DNA from: Thermodesulfobacteriaceae bacterium
GTDB taxonomy: Bacteria > Desulfobacterota > Thermodesulfobacteria > Thermodesulfobacteriales > Thermodesulfobacteriaceae
NCBI GenBank assembly: GCA_025062245.1
Contig: JANXAD010000009.1
Coordinates: 1 to 50,998 of the forward strand
Length of the DNA stretch: 50,998 bases
Reading direction: 5' to 3'
In this document: positions 569-13,257 of the stretch, piece after piece
How the letters are laid out: every line of letters starts with the position of its first letter
How positions within the stretch are numbered: position 1 is the first letter of the stretch
The notes under the pieces: generated by a model
Database searches by the model: none
The model's input: only the letters and a program-made list of their open reading frames with translations
Told to the model about the DNA's origin: nothing
Program-made: the position numbers and the translations under genes

Positions 569-1048
569 TTAAGGGTCCAAATTTTGGTGGCCTCTCAGAA
601 GGAGATAATTTTTAATTTTTTTGATTACTTCAGGAATAGATTTATTAACTTCAGGACTACATTCTTTATCAAATAGGGCAACCTCCTCTACTTCTATCCC
701 TATAATTTTTATTTCTTTGGGCATTCTTTCTGGAAAAACTTGATAACCTATTCTTATCACTTCGAATAAAGTTAAACTGTGAGTTCCACTGGCATAAATA
801 TAATCGAAACTTTTAAGAGGGTCTATTTCTATTATAGTTCCAGGTTTTAAAAGACCGGTTTTGACTCCGTCAACAATTATAGCCAAGTCATAATCAAGAA
901 TAACATCTAAAACCTTTAGGTCTGTACTTAAAAGGCAAAGAGTTTCTATTTCTTCTTGTTCTTTTCCTAAGCTTTCAACTACCTTATAACCTATTCCGTC
1001 ATCTTTAAAATTGGGATTTCCTATTCCTACAACAATAACTTTTTTCAA
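569..1048 (-). CDS. NiFe hydrogenase maturation protease (HyaD/HycI/FrhD type)
   Basis: Peptidase family M52, 159 residues, the normal length. It cleaves the C-terminal extension of the hydrogenase large subunit after nickel insertion, in the cytoplasm. Visible features are the N-terminal GIGNPNFKDDGIG loop (residues 8-20) and candidate nickel-sensing ligands D16, D60 and H90, which line up with E16, D62 and H93 of E. coli HybD. It is the last gene of the hdr-mvh operon, 28 bases after mvhA. The substrate is almost certainly that MvhA, which carries a 26-residue tail beyond its last metal-binding motif. The 3' side borders IS debris, so the operon end may have been a rearrangement point. Confidence 0.9.
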   Translation of the reverse strand: MKKVIVVGIGNPNFKDDGIGYKVVESLGKEQEEIETLCLLSTDLKVLDVILDYDLAIIVDGVKTGLLKPGTIIEIDPLKSFDYIYASGTHSLTLFEVIRIGYQVFPERMPKEIKIIGIEVEEVALFDKECSPEVNKSIPEVIKKIKNYLLLRGHQNLDP

Positions 1049-1076
1049 ATCTATTAATCCATTTTTTTTAATGATT

Positions 1077-2537
1077 TTAAAAGTTTCTCAAACTTTTTAT
1101 AAGTTGTCCATCCTTACCGTAAATCTCTATTTGGATAGGAAGTCTTCCGGGTAAAGTATGGGTTGCACAGGCAAGACAAATGTCATAGGGTCTGTAAGCA
1201 ATTTCTACTAAGTTTAAAATTCCCTCCTCTACCTTTCCTCCTTTAATAAAATTCTGGGCTGCTCTTTTTATAGCTACATTTATAGGTCCTTTATTATGGG
1301 TAGTGGCTACAATTATATTAGCATCTGTTACTAATCCTTTTGGATCCGTTTTGTAGTGATGAATTAAAGTTCCCCTGGCAGCCTCTACAATTCCTACCCC
1401 CTCTCCTAAGGGTTCTCCTAATTTTTGAGTAACCTCAGGGTTGGTAATATCTTCTTCTGAAGCAATTTTTTTCAATCTTTCAGCACAGTGTAAAAGTTCT
1501 ATGGCCCTTGCCCAGTGATAACCTAAAATATGATGGACAGGTTTTTTTTCAAAAAAGGCTAACATTTCCTCATAGGCTTCTTGAGCTTCTGGAGTATCAA
1601 AACCATTTCCTACATTAAATCTCGCTAAAGGTCCTACACTATAAAGACTGGTATTCTCTCCATCTATTATTCCTTTCCATCCCAATTTCTTTAAGTAAGG
1701 AGCTTTCTGGTAACTCCAAGGTAAGGTCCTTTCAGCAATCCAATCTAAGTATTCCCTACCTTTAAATCTTCCTATTTCTTTACCGTTTACATCAATAAAA
1801 ACTTGGGTTCCATCATAGTAGGTTATTCTTCCATTTTCATCTACAGTTCCTAAGTAGTTAGTAATTACCTTATAGGTGTCTCCTTTTATTAATTCTACAT
1901 ACTGAGGATTACTTAAAACTAAATCTTTGAAGGCCTTTAGAGTAAACCTTCCCAATTCTATACATTCTTCAGAAAGTTTAAGAATTTCTAAGCGTTCTTC
2001 TTCTTTTAACCTTTTGCTCCAACCTCCAGGAATTGCAGAAACAGGATGGGTTGGTTTTCCACCCAAAATCTCCATAATTTTTACTGCAGCAAATCTCTTC
2101 TTTAAAACCTCCCTTCCCACCTCTACTCCTACCTTTAGTATAAGCCCAATTAAATTTCTTTCTGCAGGAGAAGCTGTGGGACCACAAACAAAATCAGGAA
2201 GCCCTAAAGCATAAAGAATTTCCATGTGGTCTTCCACATAGTGAGCAGAATAAAAAAGTTCTCTTAGTTTTCTTGCAGTTTCAGTAGGTTTAACTCCAAA
2301 AATTTCATCGGTAGCTTTAAGAGAAGCCATAAAATGAACTGCTCTACACACTCCACAAATAGTGCTTACCGTTCGAGGAACCTCTTCTATGGGCATTCCT
2401 ATAAGAAACTTCTCATATCCCATAAACTCTACTGTTTGAAAAAAGGCATTTTCTACATTACCCTCTTCATCTAAAAATATGGTAATTTTCCCATGTCCTT
2501 CTAATCTGGTCATGGGATTAATTTCTATCTTAGGCAT
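1077..2537 (-). CDS. mvhA: F420-non-reducing (Mvh-type) NiFe hydrogenase large subunit
   Basis: Large subunit of a cytoplasmic group 3 NiFe hydrogenase, 486 residues. It oxidises H2 at a Ni-Fe(CN)2CO site. The four nickel cysteines are visible: ICGVC (C61, C64, with H68) near the N-terminus and DICLACATH (C454, C457, H460) near the C-terminus. The N-terminal MTRLEGHG motif is intact. The 26 residues after H460 form the cleavable tail handled by the protease encoded next. The gene sits between mvhG and the protease in the hdrA-hdrC-hdrB-mvhD-mvhG-mvhA order. Group 3c is inferred from the adjacent MvhD and Hdr genes. Confidence 0.95.
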   Translation of the reverse strand: MPKIEINPMTRLEGHGKITIFLDEEGNVENAFFQTVEFMGYEKFLIGMPIEEVPRTVSTICGVCRAVHFMASLKATDEIFGVKPTETARKLRELFYSAHYVEDHMEILYALGLPDFVCGPTASPAERNLIGLILKVGVEVGREVLKKRFAAVKIMEILGGKPTHPVSAIPGGWSKRLKEEERLEILKLSEECIELGRFTLKAFKDLVLSNPQYVELIKGDTYKVITNYLGTVDENGRITYYDGTQVFIDVNGKEIGRFKGREYLDWIAERTLPWSYQKAPYLKKLGWKGIIDGENTSLYSVGPLARFNVGNGFDTPEAQEAYEEMLAFFEKKPVHHILGYHWARAIELLHCAERLKKIASEEDITNPEVTQKLGEPLGEGVGIVEAARGTLIHHYKTDPKGLVTDANIIVATTHNKGPINVAIKRAAQNFIKGGKVEEGILNLVEIAYRPYDICLACATHTLPGRLPIQIEIYGKDGQLIKSLRNF

Positions 2538-2559
2538 AGCTCCCCCTCCCTTTTAAAAA

Positions 2560-3516
2560 TTATTTTTTAATCCTACCTCCTAACATTGAACCAGGTAAAC
2601 TGTATCTGTAAAACAGATGTAAAGGATCTTCTATTTTGTCCACTAACTCTTCATTTTCTAAAACACTGGCTATCATATTTATAGCTCTTAAACCAAAATC
2701 ACTAACCTCTGGAATAGGACCTCCGCATCCTCTACAAGGTATATTTACTTTTAAACAACTGGCTCCACAATCTCCTTGAGTGACAGGTCCGAGACACAGA
2801 TATCCGGCCTCAAGAAGACACCTTTCTTCTTCAAGCTCTCCTTCTATAATTCTCTTTACTTCTGTAGTTATTTCCTTGGACTTACCTTTTAATACAGGAT
2901 TTCTCTTACATATTTCACATACTGCATGTCCCATAGTTATCCAGCTCCCGGGAGGAGGAAGTTTTCCCTCAAGTAAAGCTATTAAAGCCTTTTTTACCTG
3001 TTCATAGTGGGGAGGACATCCTCCTATAAGATAATCTACTTCTACTACTTGTCCAAGAGTTCTAACTTCAGTCAGTTCAGGAAGTTCTAGTTCATATTTT
3101 CCGTCTACTGTTACCTTAGGACTGGGAAGTTCACCGGTGGGATTGTCTGTGCTAAAGGTATCTCGATAAGCCTTTTCTAAAAGTTCTTGATTAGTATAAA
3201 GATTAACCAATCCTTTTATACCACCCAAACTGGCACATATTCCATAGGCAATAAGAGTTTTACACTTCCTTCTCATGGTCTTGGCCATATGTTCATGCTC
3301 TTTATTTCTTACATTTCCACTCCAAAAGCCTACCTCTATGGAACCATCAGGTAAAGCTTCAAAATCTTTATATTTGACATCTAAAAGAGTGGGAGCAAAA
3401 AATACTATATCTACAGCTGTTACTACATCTATTAAAAATTCTGAAAGATCTACTAAACTTATATCACAACCCCCACAGCCCCCTGCAAGGTAATAGGCTA
3501 TCTTTGGTTTACCCAT
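2560..3516 (-). CDS. mvhG: Mvh-type NiFe hydrogenase small subunit
   Basis: Iron-sulfur small subunit (318 residues) that passes electrons from the NiFe site to MvhD. There is no Tat signal peptide, as expected for a soluble group 3 enzyme. The N-terminus has the GGCGGCDISLVDL motif (C14, C17) of the proximal cluster. Further cysteines are in GICASLGG and in GGCPPHYEQV, and a C-terminal cysteine-rich block near residues 234-266 (CLEAGYLCLGP, GDCGASC, PCRGCGGP) would hold the medial and distal clusters. The ATG follows mvhD by only a few bases and overlaps nothing. Function is well supported by family motifs and operon position. Confidence 0.94.
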   Translation of the reverse strand: MGKPKIAYYLAGGCGGCDISLVDLSEFLIDVVTAVDIVFFAPTLLDVKYKDFEALPDGSIEVGFWSGNVRNKEHEHMAKTMRRKCKTLIAYGICASLGGIKGLVNLYTNQELLEKAYRDTFSTDNPTGELPSPKVTVDGKYELELPELTEVRTLGQVVEVDYLIGGCPPHYEQVKKALIALLEGKLPPPGSWITMGHAVCEICKRNPVLKGKSKEITTEVKRIIEGELEEERCLLEAGYLCLGPVTQGDCGASCLKVNIPCRGCGGPIPEVSDFGLRAINMIASVLENEELVDKIEDPLHLFYRYSLPGSMLGGRIKK

Positions 3517-3519
3517 TTT

Positions 3520-3933
3520 TTATACCCCCCTTTTGATGGGATTAGGACCTAACTCTCTTATCTTGGCATCCAGTTCTGTTATAACCTCAGCAAATTTTTT
3601 AGCCTCACTTCCCGAAATCCACTCTAACCTTATTCTTTCTTCCTCTATTCCTAATTCCTCTAAAACTCTTTTTAGTAATTTGAATCTTCTTAAAGCTTTA
3701 TAATTACCTGAACGATAATGACAATCCCCAGGATGGCAACCTCCTATTAAAACAGCATCAGCTCCGTTAATTAGAGCCTTTACTATAAATTCAGGTTCTA
3801 CTCTTCCACTACAGGGTACTCTTATTATATGAGCAGTAGGAGGATAACTATATCTTAAACTTCCCGCAAGATCTGCAGCAGCATAGGTACACCAATTACA
3901 GGCAATGACCACTATTTTAGGTTCCCAACCCAT
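3520..3933 (-). CDS. mvhD: Hydrogenase iron-sulfur subunit MvhD
   Basis: Small [2Fe-2S] protein that links Mvh hydrogenase to HdrA. About 137 residues, typical for the family. Motifs are ACNWCTYAAADL near the N-terminus, VPCSGRVEP, and GGCHPGDCHYRSGN. I place the start at the ATG at 3933 (MGWEPK) rather than the GTG three codons upstream: the sequence AAGAGGAGG touches that GTG directly but stands eight bases before the ATG, a correct ribosome-binding spacing. With this start the gene no longer overlaps hdrB, whose stop is at 3935-3937. Confidence 0.93.
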   Translation of the reverse strand: MGWEPKIVVIACNWCTYAAADLAGSLRYSYPPTAHIIRVPCSGRVEPEFIVKALINGADAVLIGGCHPGDCHYRSGNYKALRRFKLLKRVLEELGIEEERIRLEWISGSEAKKFAEVITELDAKIRELGPNPIKRGV

Positions 3934-3934
3934 A

Positions 3935-4834
3935 TTAAGCACCTCCTCTTATTTTCTCAAGCACTTTCTCTATAGGAACTTCCGTTAAACCCAATACTTT
4001 TTCAGGCTCAGCTCCTAAAGCTAAAGCTACTAATTGAGCTATATGAACAGCTGGCAGTTCAAAATCAATTTTTCCCTCCTTTTTCATAACTGCCTGTCTA
4101 TTATCTCCTCTCAAAAGACAACTACTACAACCTACTACATAAAGTTCAGGATTTATTTCTTCTAACATAGTTTTAATTTTTCTGATAAAAAGGGTTTCCG
4201 ATTTATCCTTAGCTAAGGTTCCCAAGGCTCCCATTCCACAACAATCCGTTATAGTGCTATACCAAGGAGCTTCCCCTCCTAAGGCCTCACAAATCTCTCT
4301 TAGTCTTTTAGGTTGAAAGGTATTTTCGTCATTAGCTGGAAAGACCTTTTCTGGCCATAGATTATGACAACCTGGTTGGGCTCCACATATAAGCCCCTTA
4401 AGAGGAAATTTTACCTTTCTTTTTAGCTCATCTAAACCTACCAAATCATAGATTAGATTATAGAAATTGTATACTTTAACTTTTCCTTCATACTTTTTAC
4501 CCACACTACTTAATATTTCATTTACCTTTTGTTTGATTTCTGGATGTTTTTCCATATGATATTTAGCTTCATTTAAGCTTCCGTAGCAACTACCACATCC
4601 TGTAACTATATATTCTAACCCTTTTTCTTCAGCTATGCTCAGATTCCAAGCAGAACCTACGCACCAGGCTAAAAGGTCTACCGAAGGCATACTTCCAAAG
4701 GCAGGACAACAGGCTGCACCCTCTAAATCTACTACTTCAAAATCTAAAGCCTTTAAAGCGTATCGCATAGAATATTCCACATCAGGTCTTCTAAAAGGTA
4801 TATTACAACCTAAATATAAACCTACTCTTTTCAT
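3935..4834 (-). CDS. hdrB: Heterodisulfide reductase subunit B
   Basis: Catalytic subunit of the soluble HdrABC complex, 299 residues. The archaeal enzyme reduces CoM-S-S-CoB on two noncubane [4Fe-4S] clusters held by two CCG domains. Here the N-terminal domain shows ACCPAFGSM and GCGSCYGSL and the C-terminal domain shows DCCGMGALG and GCSSCLLRGD, with CGAQPGCHN between, so both CCG cores look intact. Bacteria usually lack CoM and CoB, so the natural disulfide substrate is unknown (perhaps a DsrC-type trisulfide or disulfide; inference). It lies between hdrC (18 bases upstream) and mvhD. Confidence 0.93.
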   Translation of the reverse strand: MKRVGLYLGCNIPFRRPDVEYSMRYALKALDFEVVDLEGAACCPAFGSMPSVDLLAWCVGSAWNLSIAEEKGLEYIVTGCGSCYGSLNEAKYHMEKHPEIKQKVNEILSSVGKKYEGKVKVYNFYNLIYDLVGLDELKRKVKFPLKGLICGAQPGCHNLWPEKVFPANDENTFQPKRLREICEALGGEAPWYSTITDCCGMGALGTLAKDKSETLFIRKIKTMLEEINPELYVVGCSSCLLRGDNRQAVMKKEGKIDFELPAVHIAQLVALALGAEPEKVLGLTEVPIEKVLEKIRGGA

Positions 4835-4852
4835 AATCTCTCCCCTCCTTTT

Positions 4853-5389
4853 TTAATCCAAAGGAAATGGAGCTACCTCTGCTAAAGCAGTTTGTTTAAT
4901 AACCTCTTGAAACTTTTTTCGCATCTCTTCATTTGAAAGAACCGTGGGAGGAACCTCAGGTAGCCCCAGCTTTCTTCTTCTTTCCTCATATCCTGCTGTA
5001 ATTACCGAATGTCCCTTTTCATAATAATTTCTTAAAGAATCTATGGTGGATGAAGGCATAGCATAATTTCTCATACACATTCTTCTTAAGGCCAAAATCA
5101 ATTCATAGGGTTTTATATCCATAGGACAGATTTCTACACATCTATTACAGCTTTGACATCCCCAGATAGAAGAATCTTCTAAGAAGATTTCCTTTAAACC
5201 TAAGATACTTGCGTGAACAATCTTTTTTATGAAATAGTCCAGTCCAGCCAAAGCCATAGGACAGGTAGCTGCGCACCTACCACATTGGATACATCTTCTA
5301 AGATCCTTTACCGACATTCCCATTTCTTCAATTTCTTCCCATAACTCTTGTAAAAATTCCTCACTTAATTTTATGAGATTTCCTTCCAT
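4853..5389 (-). CDS. hdrC: Heterodisulfide reductase subunit C
   Basis: Electron-transfer subunit (178 residues) with two classical [4Fe-4S] motifs: CIQCGRCAATCPM near residue 34 and CQSCNRCVEICPM near residue 79. It carries electrons from HdrA to HdrB. The length and the order hdrA-hdrC-hdrB are those of bacterial and archaeal soluble Hdr operons. The gene starts 17 bases after hdrA ends, consistent with one transcript. Confidence 0.93.
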   Translation of the reverse strand: MEGNLIKLSEEFLQELWEEIEEMGMSVKDLRRCIQCGRCAATCPMALAGLDYFIKKIVHASILGLKEIFLEDSSIWGCQSCNRCVEICPMDIKPYELILALRRMCMRNYAMPSSTIDSLRNYYEKGHSVITAGYEERRRKLGLPEVPPTVLSNEEMRKKFQEVIKQTALAEVAPFPLD

Positions 5390-5406
5390 TTATATCTACC
5401 TCCCTT

Positions 5407-7407
5407 TTAATAGGTGGTTAAGGCTTCTATTTGAGCCAAAATTTGTTCAGTAGTAAAGCCGTGAAAGATAATAGCTTTAGATGGACAGGCACTGGCGCAG
5501 GTTCCGCATCCTCCACAGAGGGCTGGTTCAACCTTGGCTTTATATATTCCTTGATACTCCTCTAATACAATGGCATTATAAGGACAAAGATTGACACATA
5601 CTCCACAACTACTACACTTATTTCGGATAACTTCTGCTGAGATAGCTTCAAACTTAATTTTTCCTGGCATAACGGTTGCTGCAGCAGAGGCAGCAGCTGC
5701 CTTAGCTTGAGAAACAGATTCAGGAATATCCTTAGGTCCTTGCACACATCCACAAATAAAAACTCCTCTTGAAGCTGTATCCACAGGATAGAGTTTGGTA
5801 TGAACCTCTCTCAAAAACCCCTCTCTTCCACAGGAAGCCCCAAAAAACCTACCCAACTTTTCAGTATCTATTCCAGGTTCTATAGCGGTAGCTAAAACTA
5901 CCAGGTCTACATCAACTTCCACAGGACTACAAAGGTCATTATCAAAAGCTCTAATTCTTAATTTTCCATTAGGTTTAATATCTACCGCAGAAACCCTTCC
6001 TCCTCTTATAACTTTAGCTCCCAATTGTTTAGTTGAAACATAAAACTCTTCAAAGTCCTTTCCAGCTGTTCTTACATCTATAAAAAAGAGATAAAGGTCT
6101 ATATCAGGATACTTTTCTTTTAAAATCTTAGCATGCTTAAACATATACATACAACAAACTTTAGAACAGTAAGTATGAAACCTTTCGTCTCTACTTCCTA
6201 CACAGGAAATAAAGGCTACGCTTTTAGGTTTTTTTCCATCTGAAGGCCTCCTTAATTCACCTTCCGTTGGTCCAGTAGCTGAAATAAGTCTTTCAAATTC
6301 AAGAGCAGTAAGAACATCCGGAGAGTTAGGAGAATACTCCTTAAAATGATGTTTTTCCATTACTTTAAAACCTGTAGCTAAAATTACTGCTCCGACCTTA
6401 ACAGTTAAAAATTCATCCTTATCTTCAAACTTGATAGCTTCAGCTGGACAACCAGCTATATTTTTACTGGGTATGCCCTTTTCACATATTTTACAAGCCA
6501 CTTTACCTGTTTTTCTTAAGGTTTTAAAATAAAGACAATTGTCAGTATCAATTACAGCCTTCTTAGGAACAGCTTGAGGGAATTCAATATAAATAGCAGT
6601 TCTGTCATTTAAACCGAGATTAAATTCATTGGGTGCTTTGGAAGGGCAAATAGTCATACAATGACCACACCCAGTACACTTTTCCCAATCTACATAACGA
6701 GCTTTTTTTCGTATAGTTACTTCAAAGTTTCCCACATAACCTTTAACATCCTCCACTTCTGCATAGGTAATAAGTTCTATATTAGGATGTACTCCAACCT
6801 CTACCATTTTAGGGGTAAGAATACAAGCCGAACAATCCATAGTAGGAAAGGTTTTGTCAAGTTTAGCCATGTTTCCACCTATGGAGGGTTGCTTTTCAAC
6901 TAAATAAACCTTTAATCCCATTTCAGCAAGATCTAAAGCTGCAAAGATTCCCGCAATTCCTCCTCCTATTACCATCACAGACTTTTCAGCCTCTTGATAA
7001 CGGTCCTCTAAAGGTTCTGCTAACTTTACCTTGGCTACAGCACTGGCTATTAATCTCTTAGCCTTTTCTGTGGCTCCCAATTTATCGTGCCAATGAGCCC
7101 AACTGTCTTGATCTCTTATGTTGGCCATTTCGTAAAAATATTTATTTAGACCTGCTTCTTCCAAAGCCTTTCTAAAAATAGGTTCATGGGTTCTGGGAGT
7201 ACAAGCTGCCACCACCACTCTGTCAATTAATCCCTCTTTAATATCCTCTTTTATTAAATTCTGACCAGGATCAGAACACATAAATTGATAATCCTTTGCT
7301 ATCACTACCTCAGGTAAGGTTTTAGCAAAATCTAAAACTTCTTGAATATTTACTGCTCCTTTAACATTTTCACCACAATGACATACATAGACACCTATTT
7401 TAGCCAT
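5407..7407 (-). CDS. hdrA: Heterodisulfide reductase subunit A, electron-bifurcating flavoprotein
   Basis: FAD-containing core of the HdrABC-MvhADG complex, about 666 residues. Domains in order: N-terminal VCHCGENVKG cysteine motif; Rossmann FAD site GGGIAGIFAALDLAE; the inserted MDCSACILTPKM motif; CTGCGHCMTICPSKAP; a CLYFKTLRK...CKICEK...GCPAEAI cysteine region; a second dinucleotide-binding part; and two C-terminal ferredoxin motifs, CSSCGVCVNLCPYNA and CGGCGTCASACPSKA. I choose the ATG at 7407 (MAKIGVYV): the GAGGAGG site lies nine bases before it but touches the alternative GTG at 7416. First gene of the minus-strand operon, behind a strong predicted promoter. Confidence 0.94.
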   Translation of the reverse strand: MAKIGVYVCHCGENVKGAVNIQEVLDFAKTLPEVVIAKDYQFMCSDPGQNLIKEDIKEGLIDRVVVAACTPRTHEPIFRKALEEAGLNKYFYEMANIRDQDSWAHWHDKLGATEKAKRLIASAVAKVKLAEPLEDRYQEAEKSVMVIGGGIAGIFAALDLAEMGLKVYLVEKQPSIGGNMAKLDKTFPTMDCSACILTPKMVEVGVHPNIELITYAEVEDVKGYVGNFEVTIRKKARYVDWEKCTGCGHCMTICPSKAPNEFNLGLNDRTAIYIEFPQAVPKKAVIDTDNCLYFKTLRKTGKVACKICEKGIPSKNIAGCPAEAIKFEDKDEFLTVKVGAVILATGFKVMEKHHFKEYSPNSPDVLTALEFERLISATGPTEGELRRPSDGKKPKSVAFISCVGSRDERFHTYCSKVCCMYMFKHAKILKEKYPDIDLYLFFIDVRTAGKDFEEFYVSTKQLGAKVIRGGRVSAVDIKPNGKLRIRAFDNDLCSPVEVDVDLVVLATAIEPGIDTEKLGRFFGASCGREGFLREVHTKLYPVDTASRGVFICGCVQGPKDIPESVSQAKAAAASAAATVMPGKIKFEAISAEVIRNKCSSCGVCVNLCPYNAIVLEEYQGIYKAKVEPALCGGCGTCASACPSKAIIFHGFTTEQILAQIEALTTY

Positions 7408-7442
7408 GATAGTCACCCTCCTCGGGCTTTATATTTTTAATT

Positions 7443-7471
7443 ATTATATTATAATTATATTTTTAATCCAA
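7443..7471 (-). promoter_or_regulatory. Sigma-70-type promoter for the hdr-mvh operon
   Basis: On the minus strand: TTGGAT (7471-7466), a 17-base spacer, then a perfect TATAAT (7448-7443). Transcription would start near 7436, about 29 bases before the hdrA ATG. The background is very AT-rich, but exact -10 plus 17-base spacing makes this one of the best promoters in the window. Confidence 0.65.
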
Positions 7472-7490
7472 AGAAATTTTTGAGAATAAT

Positions 7491-7508
7491 AAGTGAAAAA
7501 AATCACTT
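7491..7508. promoter_or_regulatory. CRP/FNR-family operator dyad
   Basis: Perfect 18-base inverted repeat AAGTGA-AAAAAA-TCACTT. Its GTGA-N6-TCAC core and spacing equal the CRP consensus (TGTGA-N6-TCACA). The centre (7499.5) is about 63 bases upstream of the predicted hdrA start and about 66 upstream of the predicted hypC start, close to the -61.5 used in class I activation. Which regulator binds is unknown; no crp/fnr-like gene is in the window. Confidence 0.5.
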
Positions 7509-7531
7509 TTAGGACCTGGGAAGAAAAATTT

Positions 7532-7559
7532 TTGTTAAAATTAGTAATATTAATCATAT
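7532..7559 (+). promoter_or_regulatory. Candidate sigma-70-type promoter for the hyp operon
   Basis: TTGTTA (7532-7537), a 16-base spacer, TCATAT (7554-7559), about 25 bases before the hypC ATG. Both boxes have two or fewer mismatches to consensus, but the region is AT-rich, so this is weaker than the divergent hdrA promoter. Confidence 0.35.
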
Positions 7560-7584
7560 TAAAACAAAAAAGAAAATAACAAGA

Positions 7585-7824
7585 ATGTGCTTAGCCTATC
7601 CTTATAAGATTATTGAAATAAAAGATGAATGGACAGCAGTAGCAGAAGTTCAAGGAGTTAAAACTGAAGTAGCTTTACATCTTTTACCTGAAAAAGTTCA
7701 GGAAGGAGATTGGATTTTAGTTCATGTGGGATTTGCTATTAAAAAACTAAGCCAAGAGGAGGCTCAAGAAAATTTAAAATACTGGGATGAAATCCTTAAA
7801 CTCCTTAAATTTGATATGGAATAA
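7585..7824 (+). CDS. hypC: Hydrogenase assembly chaperone HypC
   Basis: Small chaperone (79 residues) that binds HypD and the hydrogenase large-subunit precursor and delivers the Fe(CN)2CO group. The essential Cys2 is present (MCLAYPYKI), followed by the typical beta-barrel VQGVKTEVALHLLPEKVQEGDWILVHVGFAI, read here in pieces. First gene of the hypCDBEAF operon and divergent from hdrA. No strong ribosome-binding site is visible. Its 3' end overlaps the possible hypD start by 38 bases, suggesting translational coupling. Confidence 0.95.
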   Translation: MCLAYPYKIIEIKDEWTAVAEVQGVKTEVALHLLPEKVQEGDWILVHVGFAIKKLSQEEAQENLKYWDEILKLLKFDME

Positions 7825-8923
7825 CTTTAAAGACCCCCAGAGGGTTAAATTTTTAGTTAAGCTTATAAAAAAAGAAATAGAATCCCTAGGTAAATCTCTA
7901 AACCTTATGGAATTTTGTGGAGGGCATACCCATGTTATTTTAAAATATGGAATTGATGAACTTTTGAAGGATTATGTTAATTTTGTTCATGGTCCAGGAT
8001 GTCCTGTTTGTGTAATAGCTTTAGAAAGAGTAGATTTAGCCTTAGAGTTAGCTAAAAAACCTGAGATTCTTTTGTGTTCCTATGGAGACCTTATGCGAGT
8101 CCCTGGCTCCAAAGGTCATACCTTAGTTTCTTTAAGAGCTGAAGGTTATTCCATAAAAGCAGTCTCTTCTTCCTTAGAAACTTTAAAGGTAGCTAAGGAG
8201 TTTCCAGAAAAAAAGATAATTTTCTTTGCCATAGGCTTTGAAACTACTGCTCCTCATACAGCTGTCCTAATAAAGGAAGCTTACAAAAATAAAATTGATA
8301 ATCTTTTTGTTATTTCTAATCACATATTAGCTGTAAAAGTTTTAGATTTTCTTTTAAAAAGTGAAAAAAAACCTTTTGTAGAAGCTATTATAGGCCCTGG
8401 ACATGTAAGCACTATTACAGGAAGTAAGATTTACGAATCTATAGTGAAAGAGCATAACATTCCTATTGTAATTTCTGGTTTTGAACCTTTAGACCTTCTT
8501 CAAGCCATTTATCTAATAGTTAAACAAAAAAGAGAAAATCGTTGTGAAGTAGAAGTTCAATACACCCGGTCGGTAACTAAGGAGGGAAATCCTAAGGCTC
8601 AAGCTTTACTGGAAGAAGTTTTTATAATAAGAGATAGGTTTCCGTGGAGAGGTTTTGGAGATATCCCCTTTAGTGCCTATGGTATAAACTCTAAATACGA
8701 AATTTTAGATGCTGAAAAAAGGTTTCCTTTGGATATTTCAAAACTTGAGGAAAATCCCCACTGCTTGTGTGCTAAGGTTATAAAAGGAATTAAAAAACCC
8801 ACCGATTGTAAACTTTTTAAAAAAATTTGTACCCCCCAAAATCCTTTAGGACCTTGCATGGTATCTTCAGAGGGAGCTTGTTTAGCCTATTTTAAATATA
8901 AGGTAGGTAACCTTTATGTGTAA
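7787..8923 (+). CDS. hypD: Hydrogenase formation protein HypD
   Basis: Iron-sulfur scaffold (about 378 residues) on which the Fe(CN)2CO unit is built, with HypC and HypE. Visible motifs: EFCGGHTHVILKYGI (the iron-coordinating Cys), GPGCPVCVIA, IGFETTAPHTA, and the C-terminal cluster CLCAKVIKGI, DCKLFKKIC, GPCMVSSEGACLAYFKY. The ATG at 7787 gives a 38-base overlap with hypC. A TTG near 7811, just inside the hypC end, would give the more usual N-terminus (LIWNNFKDPQ), so the true start is uncertain by about eight codons. It overlaps hypB by 8 bases. Confidence 0.94.
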   Translation: MKSLNSLNLIWNNFKDPQRVKFLVKLIKKEIESLGKSLNLMEFCGGHTHVILKYGIDELLKDYVNFVHGPGCPVCVIALERVDLALELAKKPEILLCSYGDLMRVPGSKGHTLVSLRAEGYSIKAVSSSLETLKVAKEFPEKKIIFFAIGFETTAPHTAVLIKEAYKNKIDNLFVISNHILAVKVLDFLLKSEKKPFVEAIIGPGHVSTITGSKIYESIVKEHNIPIVISGFEPLDLLQAIYLIVKQKRENRCEVEVQYTRSVTKEGNPKAQALLEEVFIIRDRFPWRGFGDIPFSAYGINSKYEILDAEKRFPLDISKLEENPHCLCAKVIKGIKKPTDCKLFKKICTPQNPLGPCMVSSEGACLAYFKYKVGNLYV

Positions 8924-9626
8924 AGAATGTGGATGCACCCCCAAGAGGGAAACTTTAAACATTTTAGAAGATATAATGAAATATAATCAATTACAGGCTC
9001 AACATAATAGAAAACGCTTTGAAAAATACGAAATTTTAGCTATAAACCTTATGAGTGCCCCAGGTTCTGGAAAAACTACTCTTTTAGAAAAAACCATAGA
9101 TTTTCTCTCAAGTAAGTATAGTTTGGGAGTTATAGAAGGAGATTTAGAAACGGAAAGGGATGCAGAAAGAATAAGAAAAAAGGGAATTCCGGTATTTCAG
9201 ATTACTACAGGAAGTGCTTGCCATCTTGATGCAAGCTTAATTCATAAAGCTATGCATCAACTTCCCTTAGATAAGATAGAACTTCTTTTTATAGAAAACC
9301 TTGGAAATCTTGTATGCCCAGCCAATTATGATCTGGGAACTCATTTGAATGTTACTCTCCTTTCAGTTCCTGAAGGAGAAGATAAGCCTGAAAAATATCC
9401 TCTTATTTTTAAAGTTTCCGATCTTATTCTTATAACCAAAATAGACCTTCTTCCTTACTTAGATTTTAATCTGGAAAAGGTAGGAGAGAGTATAAAAAAG
9501 ATAAATCCTAAAGCTAAGGTTATGGCTCTTTCTGCCAAAACAGAAGAGGGTTTTAAAGACTGGATTGAGTTCTTAGAAGAAGCTTATAAAAACTATAAAC
9601 AAAGTATAGTCCATAAAGAACTATGA
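8916..9626 (+). CDS. hypB: Hydrogenase nickel-incorporation GTPase HypB
   Basis: SIMIBI-class GTPase (236 residues) that drives nickel transfer to the hydrogenase with HypA. The N-terminus carries the high-affinity metal motif CKECGC (residues 2-7). The P-loop is SAPGSGKTTLLEK, the metal-binding switch region is around GSACHLDA, and the guanine motif is ITKIDLLP. There is no histidine-rich stretch, so it is a transfer rather than nickel-storage form. Overlaps hypD by 8 bases and hypE by 4. Confidence 0.95.
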   Translation: MCKECGCTPKRETLNILEDIMKYNQLQAQHNRKRFEKYEILAINLMSAPGSGKTTLLEKTIDFLSSKYSLGVIEGDLETERDAERIRKKGIPVFQITTGSACHLDASLIHKAMHQLPLDKIELLFIENLGNLVCPANYDLGTHLNVTLLSVPEGEDKPEKYPLIFKVSDLILITKIDLLPYLDFNLEKVGESIKKINPKAKVMALSAKTEEGFKDWIEFLEEAYKNYKQSIVHKEL

Positions 9627-10633
9627 AGGTAGAAAAGATACTTTTATCTCACGGTGGTGGAGGAGAGGAAACTTTAGCCTTAATAAAAAATTTTTTTCTT
9701 AAATACTTTGACAATCCTATTTTAGGAAATTTAGAAGACTCAGCTATAATTTTAAATTCCTTTTCTAAGCTTGCTTTTACTATAGATGGATTTACGGTAA
9801 AACCTATTTTTTTTAAAGGAGGCAATATCGGAAAAATTGCTGTAACAGGAACCATAAATGATCTCGTAGTTATGGGGGCTAAGCCTCTTTATCTTACCGT
9901 AGGTTTTATTATAGAAGAGGGATTCAAAATAGGAGACCTTGAAGTTATTCTTCAAACTATGAAAGAAGAAGCTATAAAAAATGGAGTAACTATTGTAGCT
10001 GGAGATACTAAGATTGTTCCGAAAGGAGAAGTGGATGGAATATTTATAACCACTGCAGGGATAGGAGAAATCCTTTATGAAGGAATTTCTTGTAAAAACT
10101 TAGTTTCAGAGGATTTAATTATTCTTTCAGGATCCATAGGTGAACATGGAGCCTGTATTCTGGCTGAAAGAGAGGGAATAGGGGTAGAAATAGATTTAGA
10201 AAGTGATTGTAATTCTCTTTTTTCCTTAGTTGAACCACTTTTTGAATCTCGACTCGAAATTCACGCTATGAGGGATCCTACTCGAGGAGGTCTTTCTGCT
10301 ACTCTTCACGAATGGGCTTATGCTTCTTCGGTAGTTATTTTGGTTGAGGAGGAAAAGATTCCAGTTAAACCTCAGGTGAGAGCCTTTTGTGAAGCCTTTG
10401 GATTTGAACCCTATCACTTGGCTTGTGAGGGAAGGGTAGTTATAGCTCTTCCAGAAAAGGAAGCTAGTAAAGCTCTTGCACTTATAAGAAAACATCCTTT
10501 AGGAAGGGAGGCTCAAATTATAGGAAAGGTAATTAAAAAAAGTTCTTTTCCTCAAGTTCTTCTTAAAACCCTTTACGGAACTCATAGAATACTTGAAAAT
10601 ACCTCCGGAGAGCTTTTTCCTAGAATTTGCTAA
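9623..10633 (+). CDS. hypE: Hydrogenase expression/formation protein HypE
   Basis: PurM/AIR-synthase-family enzyme (336 residues) that dehydrates the carbamoyl group received from HypF to a thiocyanate on its own C-terminal cysteine. That cysteine is the last residue (FPRIC). Other family features are the N-terminal LLSHGGGGEE, TIDGFTVKP, AVTGTINDLVVMGA and DPTRGGLSATL. Starts inside the ATGA junction with hypB. Well conserved and apparently intact. Confidence 0.96.
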   Translation: MKVEKILLSHGGGGEETLALIKNFFLKYFDNPILGNLEDSAIILNSFSKLAFTIDGFTVKPIFFKGGNIGKIAVTGTINDLVVMGAKPLYLTVGFIIEEGFKIGDLEVILQTMKEEAIKNGVTIVAGDTKIVPKGEVDGIFITTAGIGEILYEGISCKNLVSEDLIILSGSIGEHGACILAEREGIGVEIDLESDCNSLFSLVEPLFESRLEIHAMRDPTRGGLSATLHEWAYASSVVILVEEEKIPVKPQVRAFCEAFGFEPYHLACEGRVVIALPEKEASKALALIRKHPLGREAQIIGKVIKKSSFPQVLLKTLYGTHRILENTSGELFPRIC

Positions 10634-10652
10634 AAAAGCTTTTTTGATCTAA

Positions 10653-11003
10653 ATGCACGAATACTTTATAGTTCAAAATATACTTAAGATTACTGAAGAA
10701 CTTATGAAAAAATATCCGGGAAAAAAAATTGTAAAGGTGGTTTTACTCATAGGAAGATATTCTGGAGTAGAACCAGACCTTCTAAAATCGGCTCTTGAAT
10801 TTTTCAAAAAAGAAAGCCCCTTAGAAGAAGCAGAAATCCTTATAGAAATTGAAGATTTTAAAATAAGATGCAAAGACTGTAAAAAAGATTTTAGCAAAGA
10901 AAAATGGGATCTAAGTTGTCCCTTTTGTGATAGTTTTAACACAGAAGTAATTTCTGGTGAAAAAATCTTATTAAAAACCTTAGAACTGATGGATGCTAAT
11001 TAG
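10653..11003 (+). CDS. hypA: Hydrogenase nickel metallochaperone HypA
   Basis: Nickel-binding partner of HypB, 116 residues. The N-terminal MHE (nickel ligands include His2) is present. The zinc site is the pair CKDC and CPFC in the C-terminal half. The gene order places it between hypE and hypF, and its end overlaps hypF by 11 bases. Confidence 0.94.
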   Translation: MHEYFIVQNILKITEELMKKYPGKKIVKVVLLIGRYSGVEPDLLKSALEFFKKESPLEEAEILIEIEDFKIRCKDCKKDFSKEKWDLSCPFCDSFNTEVISGEKILLKTLELMDAN

Positions 11004-13257
11004 ATATCGTATAGAAATAAACGGAGTAGTTCAAGGAGTAGGTTTTCGTCCCTTTGTGTACAATTTAGCTCAAACCTTAGGAGTAAAGGGTTTTGTAAAA
11101 AATGATCTCTCAGGAGTAATAATTGAAATAGAAGAAGATTCTAAAATCTTAGAACTTTTCCTTAAAAAACTTGAAGAGGAAAAACCACCTCTTTCTCAAA
11201 TTTATAAAATTAAAGTAAAAGAACTTCCCTTAGTAGGTTTTAAAAATTTTGTGATAGAAAAAAGCACCCAAGATAAAGAAATCAGCTTAGACATCCTTCC
11301 TGATGTAGCAACTTGTGAATATTGTCTTAAGGAAATGATAGATCCTCACGACCGAAGGTATCTTTATCCTTTTATAAATTGTACTCTTTGTGGTCCAAGA
11401 TTTACTATTATAGAAAAACTTCCCTATGATCGAGAAAACACAGCTATGAGGGTTTTTGAAATGTGTAAAGATTGCTATAAAGAATATGTAGATCCTAAGG
11501 ATAGAAGGTTTCATGCTCAACCTGTGGCTTGTCCTTATTGTGGGCCTTACTTAGAACTTTTTGATAATCAAGGAAACAAGGTGGCTGAAAAAGAAGAAGC
11601 TTTAAAAAAGACTACAGAGCTTTTAAAAGAGGGATATATCGTGGCAGTTAAAGGAATTGGTGGTTTTCATCTTATGGGTAAAGCAACCGATGCTAAGGTC
11701 ATAGATCTTTTAAGAAAGAGAAAAAGACGGTCAAGAAAGCCTTTAGCAGTAATGTTTAAAAATTTAGAACAACTTAAAATTTACTGTAAGATAAGTCCTG
11801 AGGAAGAAAGGGTTTTGCTATCTCCTGCAAGACCTATAGTGCTTTTAGAGGGAAGGGAGCTTTTACCTTCCCATATAGCTCCAGGTTTAAAAAGAATAGG
11901 AGCCTTTCTACCCTATTCTCCTTTACATCACCTTATCCTCCAAAATCTTGATTTTCCAGTTATAGCAACTTCTGGAAATTTTTCAGATGAACCTATAGTT
12001 ATCAAAAATGAAGAGGCTTTTAAAAAACTTATTTATCTGGCTGATTATTTACTTATGCATAATAGAGAAATTTTAAGAAGAGCTGACGATTCGGTAATTA
12101 AGGTAATTAATCAAAATCCAATTTTTATAAGAAGAGCCAGAGGTTATGCTCCTTTACCTATTTTTTTACCCTTTCAACTTAAGGAAAGAATCTTAGCAGT
12201 TGGTCCTCGTGACAAAAATACCTTTGCCATAGGTTTGGAAAACAAGGTAATTTTAAGTCAACATGTGGGTGATATAGAAACTGTAGAAGATTTGGAAGAT
12301 TTTGAAAAAACCTTAAAAGATTTTATGGAACTTTATAAATTTGAGCCTGAGGTAGTAGTATGTGATAAACATCCCTTTTATGAAACTACCAAATGGGCTG
12401 AAAGATTTACCCTGGAGAGGGAACTTCCTTTGGTAAAGGTTCAACATCACTTGGCTCACATCCTTTCTTGTATGGCTGAAAATGAAATTTTTGATGAAGT
12501 TTTGGGAATTGCTTGGGATGGAACAGGATATGGGGAGGATGGAACCGTTTGGGGAGGAGAATTCTTAGTAGTAAAAGGAAAAACCTATCATAGAGTGGCT
12601 CACCTTAGGCATTTCTGTCTTATAGGAGGAGAAAAAGCTATAAAGGAACCTAAAAGAGTAGCCTTAGCTCTTCTTTTGGAACTTTACGGAGAAAAAGCCT
12701 TAGAGAAACCTATACCTCTATTAAAAATTTTTGAAAAAAAGGAACTTTTACTTCTTTATAAAGCTTGGGAAAAAAGGATAAATTCTCCGCTCTCCTCTTC
12801 TTGCGGTAGACTCTTTGATGCAATTTCAGCCTTAATAGGAGTAAACTATATTAATCACTACGAAGGTGAATCTCCCATGATTCTGGAAGATCTTTTTGAT
12901 TACGAAGTAAAGGATTTTTATTCCCTAGAACTTTACCATGAAAAAGGAAAATATATTATAGATTGGAGCCCCATGATAGAAGCTATAACCTTTGGAAAGG
13001 AACCTATCCAGGTTAAAGTTTCCAAATTCATAAACACTCTGGCTAAAGCCTGTTTAGAAGTGGCTTTAAGGTTCGGAATAGAAAAGGTTTGTCTTTCCGG
13101 TGGAGTTATGATGAATAAACCTTTAGTAGAAAGAATAACAGAATTTTTAAGCTCAGAAGGCTTCAAAGTTTTTTATCAAACTAAGGTCCCCCCTAATGAC
13201 GGAGGTTTATCCTTAGGACAGGTTTTATACCAAGGATTAGAATTTTTAAATTTTTAG
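10993..13257 (+). CDS. hypF: Carbamoyltransferase HypF
   Basis: Large enzyme (754 residues) that makes carbamoyl-AMP from carbamoyl phosphate and transfers the carbamoyl group to HypE, the source of cyanide ligands. Domains: acylphosphatase at about 4-90 (GVVQGVGFRPFVYNLA), two zinc-finger modules at about 108-190 (CEYC...CTLCG, CKDC...CPYCG), YrdC-like at about 200-390, and a Kae1-like carbamoyltransferase domain to the end (VQHHLAHILSCMAE, GLSLGQVLYQ). The start ATG lies inside the last codons of hypA. Last gene of the hyp operon. Confidence 0.95.
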   Translation: MLIRYRIEINGVVQGVGFRPFVYNLAQTLGVKGFVKNDLSGVIIEIEEDSKILELFLKKLEEEKPPLSQIYKIKVKELPLVGFKNFVIEKSTQDKEISLDILPDVATCEYCLKEMIDPHDRRYLYPFINCTLCGPRFTIIEKLPYDRENTAMRVFEMCKDCYKEYVDPKDRRFHAQPVACPYCGPYLELFDNQGNKVAEKEEALKKTTELLKEGYIVAVKGIGGFHLMGKATDAKVIDLLRKRKRRSRKPLAVMFKNLEQLKIYCKISPEEERVLLSPARPIVLLEGRELLPSHIAPGLKRIGAFLPYSPLHHLILQNLDFPVIATSGNFSDEPIVIKNEEAFKKLIYLADYLLMHNREILRRADDSVIKVINQNPIFIRRARGYAPLPIFLPFQLKERILAVGPRDKNTFAIGLENKVILSQHVGDIETVEDLEDFEKTLKDFMELYKFEPEVVVCDKHPFYETTKWAERFTLERELPLVKVQHHLAHILSCMAENEIFDEVLGIAWDGTGYGEDGTVWGGEFLVVKGKTYHRVAHLRHFCLIGGEKAIKEPKRVALALLLELYGEKALEKPIPLLKIFEKKELLLLYKAWEKRINSPLSSSCGRLFDAISALIGVNYINHYEGESPMILEDLFDYEVKDFYSLELYHEKGKYIIDWSPMIEAITFGKEPIQVKVSKFINTLAKACLEVALRFGIEKVCLSGGVMMNKPLVERITEFLSSEGFKVFYQTKVPPNDGGLSLGQVLYQGLEFLNF

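Follow-up and report, generated by a model that had tools for sequence, protein, structure and literature searches.

The palindromic dyad AAGTGA-AAAAAA-TCACTT between hdrA and hypC is best explained (with a probability of about 0.58) as a single predicted operator common to the divergent hdrACB-mvhDGA and hypCDBEAF operons, which belongs to an energy regulon of the genus Thermodesulfobacterium and is most likely read by Rex. The dyad probably does function as a switch in an energy-gene network of this genus; judging by the sequences of sites and candidate proteins, Rex, a redox repressor, is a likelier reader than a CRP/FNR protein, the family proposed in the initial annotation.

The proposed energy regulon has the half-site TWWGTGAW and the core GTGA-N6-TCAC. 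Its members in the window (the whole analyzed stretch of 50,998 nt) would be the genes of an H2-dependent electron-bifurcating complex, hdrACB-mvhDGA, and of its [NiFe] assembly machinery, hypCDBEAF. If Rex acts here as it does in other organisms, its dimer would occupy the DNA between both promoters and repress both operons in the oxidised state of NAD(H), and an increase in NADH would release it, giving a joint switch of structural and assembly genes. Repression is favoured over class I activation, the exact hdrA and hypC promoters being candidates. If this is right, the genus, thermophilic and sulfate-reducing, has a testable master switch of energy metabolism, and one operator sets the levels of the bifurcating hydrogenase and of its own assembly line together; a search of the open-access literature found no paper combining Thermodesulfobacterium, Rex and regulon.

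The two operons are organized divergently, as initially described, with hdr-mvh on the minus strand and hyp on the plus strand according to ORFs and family scans (Table 1). The ribosome site AGGAGG places the hdrA start at the ATG codon rather than at GTG in position 7416. The 159-aa ORF of the hdrA operon is likely a maturation protease, and hypA (10653-11003) was assigned by position and sequence alone. The reported dyad is indeed present, with an exact GTGA-N6-TCAC core in positions 7493-7506; its centre is approximately 92 bp away from the hdrA start codon and 85.5 bp away from that of hypC.

Table 1. Features of the hdrA-hypC region (positions in the window)
Feature	Position	Strand	Basis
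hdrA (HdrA2-like), first gene of hdrACB-mvhDGA; ATG start 7407-7405	5405..7407	-	family scan; AGGAGG ribosome site
hdrA ribosome binding site GAGGAGGG	7416..7423	-	read directly
hdrC, hdrB, mvhD (FlpD family), small [NiFe] subunit mvhG, large [NiFe] subunit mvhA, 159-aa ORF	569..5389	-	ORFs and family scans
hypC	7585..7824	+	TIGR00074 above cut-off
hypD, hypB, hypE, hypA, hypF	7787..13257	+	scans: HypD, CobW/HypB, AIRS (HypE), HypF
Candidate hdrA promoter TTGGAT-17-TATAAT, 9/12 matches, no better than shuffles	7443..7471	-	
Candidate hypC promoter TTGTTA-16-TCATAT, weak, -10 matches 3/6	7532..7559	+	
Palindromic dyad AAGTGA-AAAAAA-TCACTT, proposed Rex-like shared operator	7491..7508	.	read from sequence

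The initial annotation suggested looking for further GTGA-N6-TCAC dyads before energy genes, and two were found in the window genome: the identical 14-mer of the dyad occurs 360 bp before RsbRD_N-dsrMKJOP, and another copy of the core lies approximately 105-112 bp before gatB-mtnA-rex. The bare core, however, is not enriched, with only 7 copies in the window genome versus 4 for the control, and 64 versus 57 for the control across the 14 Thermodesulfobacterium genomes of the genus set (the window genome being G000). The intergenic copies share the flanks TGTGAWW-N3-WTCACTWA(W), and in these 14 genomes the pattern TGTGAWW-N3-WTCACTWAW, with one mismatch, has 45 matches versus 21 for the reversed control (the site statistics are based on pattern searches and selected stretches). 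Among 43 inspected matches, 25 (about 58%) are intergenic, the intergenic share of DNA being 7-12%. As coding and intergenic DNA have similar expected densities of matches (1.67 and 1.93 per Mb, respectively), composition does not account for this intergenic excess (P < 1e-10, and P of about 5e-5 to 1.5e-3 when the six seed sites are dropped and orthologous places are counted once).

Most targets of the motif belong to energy and carbon metabolism. In addition to RsbRD_N-dsrMKJOP and gatB-mtnA-rex in the window genome, they comprise, in congeners, a ferredoxin-nuo operon, cooS, acsB, an acyl-CoA synthetase-like gene, a YaaH-type acetate transporter and, in three species, an MFS transporter; further targets are THI4, a CBS-domain protein, a porin and a slipin-like locus (congener genes were named by reading their sequences, not by family scans). 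Most sites are located 70-85 bp before the start codon. A symmetric weight matrix was built from 15 sites, none of them from the window, and with it the dyad is the best site of the 51 kb (19.1 bits; the next one, with 13.1, is in coding DNA), falls within the range of the training sites left out in turn (11.9-24.0) and has a score reached with P = 0.0003 in random intergenic-like sequences of 350 bp, though these figures are somewhat flattering, as the motif seeds came from GTGA-N6-TCAC searches prompted by the dyad, which introduces some circularity. The genus-wide motif, standing mainly upstream of energy genes, thus supports the earlier suggestion that bifurcating hydrogenase and assembly genes have one regulatory site in common. 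One more intergenic dyad of the window genome (C10:569, GGGTGTGA...TCACACCC) was discarded because it resembles a hairpin repeat.

As the reader of this motif, Rex is favoured because it is widespread in the genus, keeps its DNA contacts, has matching motif, variants and targets, and has a site before its own operon in two species. In particular, Rex is encoded in 13 of the 14 genomes, including all near-complete ones. The protein of the window genome (G000:C11:80483) aligns to solved Rex repressors with E of about 1e-28 and keeps the DNA contacts R48, K49, Q46, S52, G58, G61 and Y64, with R60 replaced by Lys (contact residues and numbers from T. maritima Rex, PMC8836258). Throughout the genus Rex retains Q-x-R-K-x-x-S and the Gly/Tyr wing, the DNA-binding helix being intact in L203:507-1142 (minus strand) and in 12 congener rex genes. 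The rex operon is preceded by a site in the window genome and in its sister G005 (220 bp, score 17.3; G005 is not in the matrix training set), while in the other genus members examined it has no site.

The motif resembles Rex operators in the GTGA-N6-TCAC core, the spacing and the AT-rich spacer, and differs from them in outer positions, having TCACTWA rather than TCACAA, with AAGTGA/TCACTT in the window copy. Compared with the published consensus TTGTGAA-N4-TTCACAA (Staphylococcus, PMC2883068), the window dyad has 5 mismatches of 14, and other genus sites have 2-4. The half-site variants GAGA and GTTA of the genus motif are also observed in the T. maritima Rex operator (PMC8836258) and in the Desulfovibrio sat/apsAB sites (PMC545781); Rex represses sat in D. 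vulgaris (Christensen 2015, cited in PMC7531388). The predicted targets shared with known Rex regulons are hydrogenase, CODH, nuo and sulfate-reduction genes and, in the window genome and its sister, possibly rex itself. Moreover, in C. bescii, where Rex represses hydrogenase genes, one redox regulator likewise controls structural and maturation genes (PMC6391272), but there [FeFe] hyd/hydG and [NiFe] Ech have separate sites, whereas in the window MvhADG-HdrABC and hypCDBEAF would be controlled from one dyad.

The textbook Rex consensus itself, with at most three mismatches, shows no excess in the window genome (254 matches versus 263 for the control), and matches with at most two mismatches are mostly inside genes; a symmetric Rex-like pattern shows a modest excess (333 versus 255), some of its matches near rex falling inside mtnA. 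The best textbook site of the window genome, TTGTGAAATTTTTTACAA, has one mismatch (L336 1560-1581, G000:C14:10161) and is located between recA and a small gene of unknown kind upstream of a trpB-like gene.

Genus Rex proteins diverge from known ones in the cofactor pocket. All 13 genus sequences have replacements of Tyr100 (T. maritima) and of the second glycine in GxGxxG, and hence an NADH response should not be assumed; the molecule sensed may be different. Rather tentatively, Rex with such a rebuilt pocket (no Tyr100, reduced GxGxxG) and a drifted operator might link sulfate reduction, complex I and CODH/ACS in one regulon with H2-driven electron bifurcation and hydrogenase assembly, and would then respond to a signal different from the simple NADH/NAD+ ratio.

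A smaller but appreciable possibility is that both motif and operator are genuine and are read by some other conserved factor of the genus, outside the Rex and CRP/FNR families. The regulon evidence names no factor, the site is found at the rex operon in two species only, and the outer positions TCACTWA depart from the textbook TCACAA; however, the core, the spacing and the GAGA/GTTA variants match Rex operators, the targets are typical of Rex, and, of the two families surveyed (Rex and CRP/FNR), only Rex, present in all near-complete genomes, provided a matching factor.

The original interpretation of the dyad as a CRP/FNR activator site, from which the native CRP/FNR protein activates both operons in class I positions, is unlikely. 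The core of the dyad coincides with the E. coli CRP consensus, and the window genome encodes a single CRP/FNR protein, with DNR as the closest solved structure. In CRP, Arg180 is the residue that reads the G of GTGA. The recognition helix of the window-genome protein is (I)TPETLSR, compared with SRETVGR in CRP, so that Pro occupies the Arg180 position; TPET[LF]SR is found in all seven genus copies, none of which has the CRP-type reading set Arg180-Glu181-Arg185. In HcpR, Pro in this position accompanies a TTGAC-type signal (PMC545781), and by its sequence the window-genome protein looks like HcpR. The G008 homologue adjoins hcp, and an FNR box TTGATTTAAATCAA, but no GTGA dyad, is located between them. 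Furthermore, CRP/FNR proteins (PF00027) are absent from 7 of the 14 genus genomes, and five of these (G002, G003, G004, G009 and G012) still carry the motif before energy genes. Together with the lack of enrichment of the bare core, these observations argue against the proposed CRP/FNR identity.

CRP sites TGTGA-N6-TCACA and Desulfovibrio HcpR sites TTGTGA-N6-TCACAA have the same core and spacing as the dyad, while other HcpR sites are ATTTGACC-N2-GGTCAAAT (PMC545781). The Desulfovibrio sequence GTGA-N6-TCAC before sat was itself first assigned to the CRP/FNR protein HcpR (PMC545781), while later work demonstrated repression of sat by Rex (Christensen 2015, cited in PMC7531388), a known trap that the CRP/FNR reading of the present dyad would repeat. 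Separately, a parS-like palindrome TGTTCCACGTGGAACA was observed at the start of the G008 CRP/FNR gene (L106, approximately 1866-1883), and the encoded N-terminus FHVEH suggests the same palindrome in the crp/fnr genes of congeners (L102-L105).

Activation from class I positions relied on promoter guesses at the level of chance. Both hexamer pairs reported initially are present, and the estimated transcription starts are 63.5 (hdrA side) and approximately 66.5 (hypC side) bases from the dyad centre, compatible with class I, in which sites are centred near -61.5. Nevertheless, three promoter-like matches were found in the region versus 2.1 expected from shuffles, and several alternative promoters in the gap score equally with the two candidates; the symmetric class I geometry is thus not established, and the 63/66 spacing is unreliable.

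Comparison with relatives shows that the divergent hdrA/hypC gap is private to the window genome among the genus genomes compared. In all 12 congeners with hypC, the gene preceding it is CDP-alcohol phosphatidyltransferase-like, and hdrA is located elsewhere, without the dyad; G005, the closest relative, has no match to hypC or hdrA at the thresholds used. Positional conservation is therefore no argument for or against function. The site is also absent upstream of the hdrA and dsr genes of congeners.

The lack of conservation of the gap in congeners agrees with a functionless chance palindrome in AT-rich DNA, as does the frequency of generic inverted repeats with 6-bp arms, which occur in 91% of dinucleotide shuffles of the 176-bp gap. 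The bare palindrome is thus uninformative, but the specific dyad is informative, since GTGA-N6-TCAC has a probability of 0.0007 in shuffles of the same gap; in the 51-kb window one copy was found versus 0.14 expected (at least one in 12 of 100 shuffles). As the dyad is also the top match in 51 kb for a motif trained on other sites and its distances from both start codons are close to those usual for the motif, its origin by chance is quite improbable. A similarity search against plasmid DNA gave no match.

Finally, although the dyad is able to form a 6-bp stem, a role in RNA as a hairpin, terminator or Rfam element was rejected as very improbable, since fold stability is inside the shuffle range (z of -0.27 and -1.56), no terminator is predicted, there is no Rfam match, and the dyad is probably upstream of both transcripts.

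Several observations concern other features of the same genomes. The hdrA gene of congeners has an in-frame TGA at codon 195 or 196, corresponding to Cys198 of the window HdrA (DCSA-C/U-ILTP), in the loci L064, L043, L044 and L045 of the genus and L048-L050 of the order; in the genus loci it is followed by a possible SECIS-like stem GGGCGAGGTCGCCC. By these sequence features, HdrA is probably a selenoprotein in those congeners, with the Cys form in the window genome and in L042. In G013:C1, partial hdrA matches near contig ends (around 1239-2090, 1752209-1753585 and 1760262-1763765) suggest repeated or broken hdrA copies. In L129 (G004:C1:1221200-1224300), ORFs repeat the peptide FNPPKRNLN/FQSTKEEFK at even intervals, as if they read through a CRISPR array.
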